This document shows, piece after piece, positions 11 through 31,887 of a stretch of DNA of 33,326 bases. Both the position numbers and the translations under genes were made by a program. This DNA is from Elusimicrobia bacterium CG_4_9_14_3_um_filter_62_55. Its GTDB lineage: Bacteria; Elusimicrobiota; Elusimicrobia; UBA1565. Numbering within the stretch: the first letter of the stretch is position 1; each line of letters begins with the position of its first letter. Under the pieces are notes generated by a model. It saw nothing but the letters and a program-made list of their open reading frames with translations. It was not told the origin of the DNA and did not search any database. Location: NCBI GenBank assembly GCA_002790095.1, contig PFUL01000025.1:1-33326 (forward strand). Direction: 5' to 3'.

Positions 11-1240
11 CTAAGACCAAAGCGTACAAATAGGCGCCGCGAGCAGACGCTCGCCGAGGGAGAACGAACGCGGACCTGTATGCAAAACGACCCCGGCGAT
101 GAATCGGTCTCCGAGCGAGTCCCGCAGCCAGCGCAGGTGCTTGGTGGAATCCGGCCCCGGAGCGGCATCGGCCTTGACCTCGATCCCGACCACCCGTCCT
201 CCGCTCAACTCGGCGATGAGGTCGACCTCGTGACGCCCTTCCTCTTGGCGCAAATGAAACAGGCGGGGGCACGACTCGGCGACCGTCGACTCGGCGCGCA
301 ATTGAGCGGCGACGAAGGTATCCAAAACCCGCCCGAGCAGATCGCCGTCGCGCAGCACCGCCGCGGCGTCCGCCCTCAGGCTGCCGGCCAATAGCGCCGG
401 GTCGATCAGATAGCGTTTGGGCGCCCGAATCAGGCGCTTGAGACGGTTGGACGCCCAGGCGGGAACGCGGTCGATAACCGCCAGATTGAGCAGAAGCCGT
501 TCATAGGCGGCCGCCGTCCTGAAATTGATCCCCGCCGCGTCGTAGAGTGTTTTGTCCTGGGCGACCCCTGCCGAGTTGAGCGCGAACGCTTCGAAATACC
601 GGCGCAGCCGCTCGGGGTCGCGAAGACCTGCGACCGAGGCCGCATCCCGGGTCAAGAGCTGCTCGATATAACTTTCAAGCCACCGGGCCCTCGTGCCGTC
701 GGAAAGTTCCAGCGCCGCTTCGGGGAAGCCGCCGCGAAGAGCCAAATCAATGTAACCGCGCAGATCCGGCGCGTCGGAAGGGACTTTCAGCGCGTCGCCG
801 CGTGCCAACCGGTCGAGCAGAGGCCGCGTTCGCCGACCGAATTGCTCGGCGACCGTGAGTCCGAATAAGGGCACCCGTACAAGCCGGCCGGTTCCCGGCC
901 ATGTGGGCGCGTCGAGGTCGGCTCGTACGGATCCCGTCAGCAGATACCGGCCGGGACGATTGTCCTTGTCGACGGCGCGCTTGACGGCGCCGAGTACTTC
1001 CGGCACGACCTGCCACTCATCGAGAAGCACCGGTTCGTCGAGCCCGCGCAAAGCCGAATCGGGGTCGGCCCGAAACGCCGCCGCTTCTGCGGGCCGGTCC
1101 AGCCGCACGATCGAAGAGACGTGGCGCATTGCCGTCGTCGTCTTGCCGGCGGCGCGGGGACCTACGATGAGGAGGGCCGGCAGTTCGCTCAAGAGGCTCG
1201 CCAAGAGGCGATCCACGGCTCGGGTTTTATAGTCGCTCAC
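11..1240 (-). CDS. AAA_14/DUF4143-type ATPase (array gene 1)
   Basis: A 409-residue ATPase of the AAA_14 plus DUF4143 architecture; the cellular role of this family is not established. The P-loop GPRAAGKT lies at residues 27-34, a Walker B-like LLDEW at about 73-77 and a sensor-like LLTGS at about 100. The C-terminal part carries EVDLIAE followed by GIEVKAD, which matches the E/D and ExK positions of a PD-(D/E)xK nuclease-like fold. Nuclease activity is inference. The start is GTG at 1240: a TATTAT box at 1247-1252 ends six bases before it and no Shine-Dalgarno is visible, so the mRNA is probably leaderless. The stop codon abuts the clipped repeat at 1-10. Length is normal for the family. Confidence 0.85.
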   Translation of the reverse strand: MSDYKTRAVDRLLASLLSELPALLIVGPRAAGKTTTAMRHVSSIVRLDRPAEAAAFRADPDSALRGLDEPVLLDEWQVVPEVLGAVKRAVDKDNRPGRYLLTGSVRADLDAPTWPGTGRLVRVPLFGLTVAEQFGRRTRPLLDRLARGDALKVPSDAPDLRGYIDLALRGGFPEAALELSDGTRARWLESYIEQLLTRDAASVAGLRDPERLRRYFEAFALNSAGVAQDKTLYDAAGINFRTAAAYERLLLNLAVIDRVPAWASNRLKRLIRAPKRYLIDPALLAGSLRADAAAVLRDGDLLGRVLDTFVAAQLRAESTVAESCPRLFHLRQEEGRHEVDLIAELSGGRVVGIEVKADAAPGPDSTKHLRWLRDSLGDRFIAGVVLHTGPRSFSLGERLLAAPICTLWS

Positions 1241-1246
1241 AGACCA

Positions 1247-1252
1247 ATAATA
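1247..1252 (-). promoter_or_regulatory. -10 box of array gene 1
   Basis: On the minus strand this reads TATTAT, six bases before the GTG start. It fits the leaderless spacing seen at many genes in this window. No convincing -35 box is visible. The surrounding 1253-1333 is AT-rich and holds no gene I can support. Confidence 0.5.
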
Positions 1253-1333
1253 CTATCGAAACGCACTTCTTGCAACTATTTAACCGCATATACAAGTACT
1301 AATATTTCGCACATCCTGCTCGACATCCTATAC

Positions 1334-13561: not shown

Positions 13562-14473
13562 GTGAGACGACTGCAAATTCCGTTCGCGTTCGCGTTCGCC
13601 GCGGCCTGCGCCGCGCCCGCGCCGCGCTACGCTGCGCACGACCCGCTCTCGGGCGCGCCGTCGCCCTCCGCGCACGAAGCCGACGGCGTCCACCTCTACA
13701 CCGCCGTAATCCCCCAAGGCTACACCCGCAGCGACGGGCGCTTCTCCGCGCCGCTCGTGGAATTTCTGCATCGGCCGGTCTACGGGGGGGAAGCCTCGAT
13801 CATGCTGGAGCGCTACCGCGAAGCCGACGGGGCGCCGGACCGGGAGTCCTTCGCGCGAAACCTGCACCCGTCCCGCCCGGTGCCGACCCTTCGGGAATTC
13901 GCGCAGAAGAAGCTCGCGGTCTATCACGACCTGCGCTTTGAATCCTACACGCGCCGCATTTCCACGAGCGATCCCTACGCCGACGTGCTCGGCGAGGACA
14001 TCGCCCCGCCCCGTCTCGATCCCCTCGGCAAGCGCCGCTTTCCCAAAGGCGGCGACGCCTTCCGCCTTCACCGCTGCAAAAAGAAAGGCGCCTGGGCAAT
14101 CCTGACCGATCAGACTCGCGCGCGCGTCGGGCTTGAGAAGGGCTCCCCCGAGCCCAAGCCCATCTCGCCTCGGGACCGCAGCCTGCTCGCGACCTGCTTC
14201 GGCCGAGGCGTTCTCGAGCATCTCGAAAAAGGGGAACCCTACGGCAGCATCCCCAAGCCCAGCCTCTCCCGCCTGCGGCTGATGGCGACCGACGAATGGG
14301 AGCATGGGGCCGCCCGCCGCATCGAGCGCGAGTGCGTCCATCTGCGTCCCACGCAGGACGGCTATGCGGTGATCCGCTTTCGCGCGCCGGATCACGCCTT
14401 CGACGACCAGCACGCGGCGTTCGAGTTGTTTCTCGGGAGTTTGACGGTGCCCGGGGAAACGACGGGACGATAA
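13562..14473 (+). CDS. putative lipoprotein of unknown function
   Basis: A 303-residue protein with a hydrophobic N-terminus and a possible lipobox (AFAAAC, Cys at about 16), so it is probably exported and lipid-anchored. The mature part contains ATDEWEHGAARRIERECVHL and ends with FELFLGSLTVPGETTGR. I see no known domain, but the build resembles small exported surface-binding proteins that end in a dimerisation-like helix and strand. The start is GTG 13562. TAAACT at 13549-13554, which includes the stop codon of the preceding gene, ends seven bases before it and matches the carB arrangement. The stop codon TAA is the first three bases of the 285-bp palindrome. Confidence 0.7.
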   Translation: MRRLQIPFAFAFAAACAAPAPRYAAHDPLSGAPSPSAHEADGVHLYTAVIPQGYTRSDGRFSAPLVEFLHRPVYGGEASIMLERYREADGAPDRESFARNLHPSRPVPTLREFAQKKLAVYHDLRFESYTRRISTSDPYADVLGEDIAPPRLDPLGKRRFPKGGDAFRLHRCKKKGAWAILTDQTRARVGLEKGSPEPKPISPRDRSLLATCFGRGVLEHLEKGEPYGSIPKPSLSRLRLMATDEWEHGAARRIERECVHLRPTQDGYAVIRFRAPDHAFDDQHAAFELFLGSLTVPGETTGR

Positions 14474-14755
14474 ACGGAAACGAACGGAACGTTTACGCGC
14501 TTCGGGCGCGTGGCTCGAAGAATTGCTTCGCAATTCTCCGAGCTCCAACGGAAACGGCTCGGCCCTCCCGGGCGAACGCGCCTCCAGCAACGGAAATTCG
14601 TGCAATTGAAAATCAACGGCGTTCGTTAAAGGAGCGTTCGCCCGGGAGGGCCATGCCGTTACAGGGCCGTTGCCTTTCGAGCTCGCGCGTTTTTTGCGAA
14701 GCAAAAAACCGCGAGCCACGCGCCCGAAGCGCGTAAACGATCCGTTTCCGTTTAT
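14471..14755. repeat. 285-bp imperfect palindrome between convergent genes
   Basis: The left arm begins TAAACGGAAACG and continues CGTTTACGCGCTTCGGGCGCG; the right end is its reverse complement, with a 4-base indel, for about 43 bp (14471-14517 against 14713-14755). Inside, each arm has its own mini-hairpin (GAATTGCTTCGCAATTC on the left, TTTTTTGCGAAGCAAAAAA on the right). A second matching block follows, GGCCCTCCCGGGCGAACG paired with CGTTCGCCCGGGAGGGCC. The element exactly spans the gap, taking the stop of the left gene and reaching one base into that of the right. Part of it recurs at 31720-31860. It could end transcription in both directions, but its size and recurrence point to a REP- or MITE-like element. 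Confidence 0.8.
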
Positions 14756-15585
14756 CAGGGCGCCGAAAAATACAGCGTGCGCGTCGCGGGATCGATGCGC
14801 AGGATGAGGGTGGGACCGTCCTTCACCTTGTATTTCTTCGCCTGTCCCGCGGAGAGTTCCGAGAACGGGACGATGAGCCGCTTCAGATCCGGCGAGCCGC
14901 TTCCCTGTTTGCGGTCGTAGGCGATCACGATGCCGAAGCGGTCGTTCACGATGCGGCCGTTGGGCTGTCGGTCGAGGTCGTTGGAGAAGTAGACTCGAAA
15001 CTCCCGGCCGCCGGCCTTCACCTGCGCCCCCTGGGCATAGGCCTTGTTGACGAGGTCCTGAATCTCGATGTCGTAGACGGAACCGGCGCGGTCGGCTTGA
15101 ATGCGGATGTGGTTGCAGATCTTGCAGAAGATATTCGTGATGCGGACGTCGGCGCGGTAGTTGAGCGCGCCGGTGCGCCAGCGGCCGTCCATGCTACGTT
15201 CCAAGCGCGAGAAGTTGGGAACGACCTCGCCCGGGGGGAGAACGCCGAGGTAGGATTCGCCGACGAGGTCGAAGGTGACGCTGACCTCAAAGGTCTTTCC
15301 GTCGTGCGTGAAGCGGTCCACGCCGGTCCAATGCTTGTTGAAGATCCCATCGAGCAGTACCGCCGAGCTTTCCCGGCTGAGGACTCGGACGACGGGTTCG
15401 CCCTCGACGAGCTCGCCGCCCGGCACCAAAGACCCGTCGTCGAGTTCCACGGGGCGGGGGGCTTCCACCGGGGGGACGGCGGCCGCAAACGGCGCTCGCG
15501 CGCCGGGGACGCCCGTGAAAACGCCCTGGGCGCCGGCCGGGGAGGCCGAGAGCAGAACCGAGAGAACGACGCGTCGGATCAACAC
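14755..15585 (-). CDS. exported protein of unknown function with CxxC
   Basis: A 276-residue protein with an N-terminal signal sequence (MLIRRVVLSVLLSASPAGAQ, likely cut after GAQ or AQG). The mature part is mostly beta-like, with a CKIC motif at about residue 155 that could bind metal or form a disulfide, and a C-terminal IDPATRTLYFSAP. I do not recognise a family. The start is GTG 15585; GATACT on the minus strand ends seven bases upstream. It converges on the lipoprotein gene across the large palindrome and diverges from the exported protein at 15739. Confidence 0.7.
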   Translation of the reverse strand: MLIRRVVLSVLLSASPAGAQGVFTGVPGARAPFAAAVPPVEAPRPVELDDGSLVPGGELVEGEPVVRVLSRESSAVLLDGIFNKHWTGVDRFTHDGKTFEVSVTFDLVGESYLGVLPPGEVVPNFSRLERSMDGRWRTGALNYRADVRITNIFCKICNHIRIQADRAGSVYDIEIQDLVNKAYAQGAQVKAGGREFRVYFSNDLDRQPNGRIVNDRFGIVIAYDRKQGSGSPDLKRLIVPFSELSAGQAKKYKVKDGPTLILRIDPATRTLYFSAP

Positions 15586-31623: not shown

Positions 31624-31887
31624 CGTTTCATCGGCGGTAGACGCTCAACTGTCCCCGGGGACAGTCGTCGTTTCCCGCGCGTCACGCTGCTCCCATCGGG
31701 GTGGTTTTGGAATTTTGAAATTTACCGGCGTTCGTTAAGGGCGCGTTCGCGCGGGAGCGCCGAGCCGTTTCCGTTCGAGTTCGCGTGTTTTCGCGCCAGC
31801 GAAAACCGCGAACCTGGCGCACGAGGCGCCACGCAGTCGCGCACGAAGCGCGAAAGAAAATCCGTTCAATAGACGCGAAACCGCTAC
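31624..31887. repeat. repeat-rich insert between cupin and frameshifted gene
   Basis: 264 bp lie between the two copies of the 21-bp direct repeat. The right half (about 31716-31860) is homologous to the right arm of the 285-bp palindrome at 14471: it shares CGGCGTTCGTTAA, then GCGTTCGC-CGGGAG, then TTCGAG-TCGCG and an analogous GTTTTCGC/GCGAAAAC hairpin (31787-31806). Two further hairpins with ACGAR loops follow: TGGCGC/GCGCCA (31815-31831) and TCGCGC/GCGCGA (31837-31853). The left half contains a perfect 18-bp palindrome around CCCCGGGG (31648-31665). No ORF is supported. Confidence 0.7.

Follow-up and report, generated by a model that had tools for sequence, protein, structure and literature searches.

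Among the intergenic palindromes of bacteria, those of the ERIC and MITE type are long, with sizes of 100-300 bp. Published REPs are described as lying in convergent and unidirectional gaps, less than 20 bp from stop codons, which they can supply themselves (PMC3733652). According to the same description, heterodimers are preferred in most REP families, and RAYT-type genes of Pseudomonas are flanked by 'double palindromic' TIRs that consist of a degenerate GTAG-1 unit and an unrelated stem-loop (PMC3733652). A palindrome that shares several of these features was analyzed here in a stretch of 33,326 nt (the window) from the genome of Elusimicrobia bacterium CG_4_9_14_3_um_filter_62_55.

In an earlier note on the window, a 285-bp palindrome was described that fills the gap between two convergent genes (Table 1). 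An inverted-repeat search revealed three nested arm pairs within it, of which the outermost (14469-14482 / 14743-14756) matched over 14 nt at 100% and the next one inward (14483-14517 / 14712-14746) over 35 nt at 97%. The figure of about 43 bp given before for the tips is, if anything, low. The arms were further said to match again inside, which was borne out by the innermost pair (14553-14583 / 14630-14660, 31 nt, 90%). Folding of the 286 nt as a single strand gave a stability about 15 standard deviations beyond that of dinucleotide shuffles (z about -15) for DNA and RNA alike, and none of 200 shuffles reached the stability of the palindrome. In the predicted fold, an outer and an inner stem are accompanied by two side hairpins. 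Together, arm matches and fold confirm that the palindrome is real. Comparison with other copies placed the boundaries of the family near 14483 and 14746; the outer bases of each arm (about 12, TAAACGGAAACG) are an extension that is missing from the three other near-full-length copies of the same genome in a four-copy alignment. No part of the window matched an Rfam family at gathering score.

Table 1. Features of the palindrome, its neighboring genes and the half copy in the window.
Feature	Position	Strand	Remarks
Left convergent gene	13562..14473	+	No Pfam match; stop TAA inside palindrome
Whole palindrome as first reported	14471..14755		Perfect pairing in fact 14469-14756; fold
Outer left extension TAAACGGAAACG	14471..14482		Holds TAA stop of + gene; mirrored at 14743-14755
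Family element	14483..14746		AACGG... ...CCGTT; ends from comparison with other copies
Left tip TTTACGCGCTTCGGGCGCGTGG with hairpin A (14496-14510)	14492..14513	+	
Left hairpin B GCTCGAAGAATTGC-TTC-GCAATTCTCCGAGC	14513..14543	+	
Inner stem, left arm	14553..14583	+	Inverted-arm match
Central core between inner arms	14584..14629		Arm match and four-copy alignment
Inner stem, right arm	14630..14660	-	Inverted-arm match
Right hairpin B, stem differing from left one ('heterodimer')	14681..14716	-	
Right tip TTTACGCGCTTCGGGCGCGTGG read on - strand, with hairpin A	14716..14737	-	
Right convergent gene	14755..15585	-	No Pfam match; stop TGA, one base touched by palindrome
Diverged half copy (right arm)	31715..31829	+	73% identical to right half, E 9.9e-14

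Both flanking genes were kept by the codon-usage gene caller, which was purpose-made for this analysis and is not a standard program. The palindrome begins with the TAA of the plus-strand gene (14471-14473), and the stop of the minus-strand gene lies at 14755-14757 (TCA on the plus strand), the last base of the palindrome being its T at 14755. The observation that the element supplies the stop codon of one gene and reaches one base into that of the other was therefore correct. For the right-hand gene, relatives were only 22-33% identical, so that they provided no empty site for the window copy.

The assembly of the window (G000; 4.31 Mb, 202 contigs) yielded 36 matches, which were grouped here into 17 places with whole or partial copies, the window copy included. 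Near-full-length copies on contigs C75, C64 and C147 were 77-83% identical, and the others were halves or broken. One of the halves is the partial repeat reported before at 31720 in the window. With about 16 further whole or partial copies in the genome, the possibility raised earlier that the palindrome is a one-off terminator has to be abandoned. Matches at DNA level were present in five of 57 kin genomes, counting its own. The exact 22-base tip TTTACGCGCYTCGGGCGCGTGG was found in 98 stretches of a named-genome collection that may omit records of the window's own genome, all of them from three MAGs of the same taxonomic family, namely JACPXC (Elusimicrobia bacterium NC_groundwater_827; G002), SCTT (bacterium FW305_bin.15; G007) and JACRDU (Elusimicrobia bacterium NC_groundwater_1680; G005); it was absent from a collection of viral contigs. 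In G002, near-identical copies are dispersed at unrelated flanks.

A covariance model of the arm, covering 60 positions with the tip and the second hairpin, detected matches in seven of the eight genomes of this taxonomic family: at least 150 in G007, 73 in G002, 22 in G000, six in G005, four in G001, one each in G004 and G006, and none in G003. With stricter filters, a phylum-wide search gave matches in seven of 198 genomes, three of which (G012, G066 and G224) had best E-values of only 2e-4 to 5e-4. Among 13 returned loci that were inspected, for some of which the stretch viewed did not include the match, some kept the tip and carried a different second hairpin.

Further palindromic sequences were noted around the copies. 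Just upstream of the half copy in the window lies a ACTGTCCCCGGGGACAGT palindrome (about 31650-31667); similar palindromes, ACTATCCCYRGGGATAGT, occur in the cores of many G007 copies and may represent a nested repeat of another kind. A larger composite repeat in G000 (contigs C74, C83, C48 and C92; loci L012, L014, L016 and L020) has the right arm together with additional outer sequence, CTCCAGGTTTCCCTACTTTCAACGAGGAG and a palindrome of the TTTACATCTCGCGCGAGATGCAAAA type. A sister variant, CGCGCTTCGTGCGCGATGCTCG, is located in the same genome on C49, C75, C90 and C66 (L044, L046, L047 and L051), in two cases no more than 90 bases from the end of a contig, which suggests another assembly-breaking repeat family. 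In two loci of G002 (L062 and L076), both between divergent genes, copies are nested in an outer pair GTTCCCGGGGTTT / AAACCCCGGGAAC.

The anatomy of the element was derived from 65 distinct paired copies in loci L001-L175, defined as inverted tips 100-900 bp apart with at most four mismatches. The paired elements are mostly about 200-430 bp long, their cores vary between sub-families, and the gene caller placed no gene within any of the 65. One G002 copy of 718 bp (L276) was seen to hold a DUF6998 gene in its core (864-1298, minus strand; Pfam E 1.2e-43), as if carried as cargo. In 126 aligned element ends, ACGGCGNA was conserved before TTTAC and conservation stopped sharply at the ACGG motif, nine bases outside TTTACG, with flanks that are near random; the conservation of the tip itself is inflated because the loci were fetched by it, an effect that does not touch the flank columns. 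Hairpin A (ACGCGCYTCGGGCGCGT) is GC-rich and almost invariant. Hairpin B, as judged from alignment A1, is kept in structure and not in sequence: 13 of its 15 pairs showed changes on both sides, and its 13 inner pairs comprised 1222 Watson-Crick, nine G-T and 43 mismatched cells (1274 in total). Across the whole structure 250 double-changed cells were counted, while shuffles gave 76 and slid controls 22-50. This result is favored by the composition of A1, which holds 98 of 103 distinct half sequences, since five halves with a missing or broken second hairpin (L009 right, L076 left, L117 left, L150 right and L162 right) were removed by hand. Within an element, left and right hairpin B could be compared in 55 of the 65 pairs and differed in 53 of them. 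A long-range pairing of the two tips was considered as well and rejected: at a C/T position the two tips of an element read CC 26, CT 15, TT 12 and TC 12 times (n=65), without clear covariation, so that the tips look conserved as separate units.

Placement relative to genes was assessed for 55 copies, of which 31 lie in convergent, 18 in tandem and six in divergent gaps according to the codon-usage caller; the remaining 10 of the 65, mostly at contig ends, have no gene called on one side. Convergent gaps thus hold 31 of 55 copies compared to 61 of 492 background pairs (Fisher p about 1e-12). The background consisted of the other neighboring gene pairs in 98 named loci, and the test is conservative because these include gaps beside single or cut copies. 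On stop-facing sides the distance between gene and TTTACG had a median of 19 nt (n=85), on start-facing sides of 96 nt (n=35). In 16 of the 85 stop-facing sides the gene ends at most nine bases from TTTACG, that is inside the ACGG tip, indicating that the window copy is not alone in the family in supplying part of a stop codon. Gene-end placement and stop supply have already been described for REPs (PMC3733652) and are not in themselves new. The expectation that copies always sit between convergent genes was not met by the 18 tandem and six divergent ones. From the proposal of a new REP/MITE-like family that targets gene ends, dispersal, REP-like build and a bias to gene ends stand, and targeting is not proved: the placement seen in these sequences would be the same whether gene ends are chosen or the element is tolerated only there.

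Two pairs of corresponding gaps with and without the element were found, those without it in a congener. In the first, a convergent pair in G007 (L075) has stops 298 bp apart and nearly all of this gap is element, and in the counterpart in G005 (L264) the same convergent arrangement has stops 1 bp apart and lacks it. The left gene of L075, which we take to be acyl-CoA dehydrogenase-like, encodes a protein identical to that of L264 at 283 of 376 aligned positions; the right gene is cysteine-rich, and the right proteins are only distant homologues. In the second, the stops of another convergent pair are 284 bp apart in G007 (L069) and 4 bp in G005 (L282). The G002 orthologue of the left gene in L075 has no element in the sequence behind its stop codon. 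The two element-free stop-to-stop junctions support insertion at these sites, for which the comparison provides good evidence; the direction, gain in G007 and not loss in G005, is a parsimony argument based on a small number of genomes. No target-site duplication was detected at offsets 5-13 with k of 2-8, the only standout being a 2-base match at offset 6, which lies inside the element. A further candidate for an empty site, L073, was not counted, as its left gene is present in relatives and the right neighbor is located on another contig. In G003 (L266), the gene orthologous to the left one of L075 has on its 3' side REP-like palindromes that are unrelated to the element, CATCCCGGCGAAAGCCGGGATCC and a partner in inverted orientation; it looks as though gaps of one kind were used by different repeat families.

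The genomes were also searched for a gene that might mobilize the element. Y1 (HUH) transposases (PF01797) are present in all eight genomes of the taxonomic family. A pattern scan of 30 Y1 loci gave no tip at up to five mismatches, and BLAST of the 65 elements against 40 Y1 loci from the eight genomes, several with flanks cut by contig ends, gave no significant arm match; three rows on two loci covered 16 and 25 bases (E 0.009 and 0.002), none of them at the tip. Other inverted repeats were common to both flanks at 19 of the 40 loci. A transposase carrying the same tips, as envisaged in the earlier note, was accordingly seen neither in the 65 elements nor at the 40 Y1 loci. In the loci covered, from draft genomes whose contigs break at the repeats, tip pairs up to 5 kb apart contained no autonomous element with the same ends. 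In the sole tip pair 0.9-5 kb apart (L058), two different half elements flank a broken gene of the IS110 type (Pfam DEDD_Tnp_IS110, E 1.4e-15). This gene was rejected as mobilizer and more likely represents a later insertion into a REP-like target. Insertion sequences that enter REPs as targets are described in the literature (PMC1525189).

These observations are probably best explained by a non-autonomous, REP-dimer-like (BIME/REPIN-like) palindromic repeat of Elusimicrobiota that is copied in trans and survives behind stop codons. Two copies of an arm of about 60-100 nt, inverted relative to each other, flank a variable core, and each has the fixed outer motif ACGG..TTTAC, the near-invariant hairpin A and the hairpin B kept by structure only. 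A trans-acting enzyme presumably recognizes the folded arm and copies the element to new sites, most plausibly on single-stranded DNA, and copies would persist where neither a gene nor a promoter is broken, that is just behind stop codons. There the element may become the 3'-terminal part of the transcripts of one flanking gene or of both, and its nested RNA hairpins would stop 3' exonucleases as well as transcription reading through from the gene opposite. The element has no U-run such as follows the stem in an ordinary intrinsic terminator, and only a weak 5-pair stem was detected in it, on the minus strand; judged by its sequence, it is not a terminator of this type. Counted against the preferred explanation are the missing conserved GTAG or CGTC tag, the lack of a RAYT with the tip at the 40 Y1 loci, the missing target duplication and the six of 55 copies in divergent gaps.

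That the element belongs to the RAYT-mobilized GTAG REP superfamily, with the RAYT located elsewhere and the GTGG between the hairpins as tag, appears unlikely to us. GTGG does precede hairpin B in most copies and is described as a variant tag in Opitutus terrae (PMC3733652), and Y1 transposases of the PF01797 type occur throughout the taxonomic family; however, the fourth base of the tag is C (GTGC) in a sub-group, distant relatives read GTGA or otherwise, and none of the examined Y1 loci has the tip nearby, while 19 of 40 share other inverted repeats. Quite improbable is a mobile single-stranded DNA lineage, a REP-like system independent of GTAG and RAYT, in which arms of two hairpins with TTTAC 5' of the first would be cut and pasted between converging stops by an unlinked nuclease and the two sides of the inner hairpins rewritten together by template switching, a process that the complementary changes and the near absence of G-T intermediates would fit.

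We assign a similarly low probability to a host-made bidirectional terminator or mRNA 3'-end element that is selected for ending converging transcripts and whose spread is incidental. The very stable RNA fold and the strong bias to convergent gaps and to the bases beside stop codons agree with it, but 24 of 55 copies lie outside convergent gaps, terminator-like sites near the element are about as frequent as by chance (two found, 0.9 expected), and the two empty sites manage with stops 1-4 bp apart. Moreover, the number of arm matches ranges from none to at least 150 within one taxonomic family, which argues against a needed part. There is likewise little chance that the element is a MITE, left by deletion from an insertion sequence that has the same TIRs, and moved by a DDE transposase: its long terminal inverted repeats, the size of mostly about 200-430 bp, the sharp ends and the near-identical G002 copies at unrelated flanks would be expected, but no gene is called in the paired elements, L058 looks like an IS110-type insertion into the repeat, no target duplication was found at offsets 5-13, and the element ends in conserved hairpins, which is unusual for a DDE element.

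The element thus belongs to a real dispersed family that is apparently undescribed, of a known, REP-like kind. The literature on Elusimicrobia contained no description of such repeats within our coverage, which leaves out most subscription papers and makes this a weak indication. An apparently undescribed REP-like family is thereby added to the Elusimicrobiota. The two natural empty sites make it testable whether REP-like palindromes choose stop-to-stop junctions or are just tolerated at them. That stems changed on both sides contain almost no G-T bears on whether RNA function or copying at the DNA level keeps the hairpins, and a family without an obvious transposase is a case for finding how orphan REPs spread.

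Compared with known systems, the element shares the long intergenic palindrome with the ERIC and MITE types, a likeness of description only (no Rfam match); it shows neither the target-site duplication of a MITE nor the stem with U-run of an intrinsic terminator. In GTAG REPs the tag is unpaired and present in more than 90% of members in most families, and the cognate RAYT is flanked by the same repeat; in contrast, no conserved GTAG tag and no RAYT beside a copy were found here (PF01797 loci, eight genomes), and G-T makes up only nine of 1274 cells in the covarying stem, whereas frequent GT pairing is reported for GTAG REPs. The sole candidate tag, GTGG, lies partly inside hairpin A and changes to GTGC within the alignment and GTGA in distant relatives; being in part base-paired and variable among relatives, it gives no ground for filing the element under GTAG REPs. 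CGTC-tagged REPs, as described, are likewise orphans without a dedicated transposase that form head-to-head dimers in the same placement (PMC3733652), but their CGTC tag with a stem of 8-9 bp is not matched by the tip and stems seen here, which have no CGTC, TGTC or CCTC and measure 13-16 bp. With the 'double palindromic' TIRs described from Pseudomonas (PMC3733652) the element has in common two adjacent stem-loops per arm and hundreds of copies, although its arms flank no transposase gene and the likeness is again one of description. REP dimers, BIMEs and REPINs, in the accounts given of them, are dispersed extragenic inverted pairs of hairpins, often heterodimers with complementary stem changes (PMC3733652, PMC3116915), as is this element, which differs in having two hairpins per arm and about 280 bp in all. 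In the broad sense of REP/BIME, the family consists of numerous short palindromes outside genes, which stand as inverted pairs around a spacer (the 65 distinct paired copies) and prefer convergent and unidirectional gaps near stops. Because of its double-hairpin arms, the lack of a tag and of a linked RAYT and the few G-T pairs, it is regarded as a variant rather than a plain member of this group.
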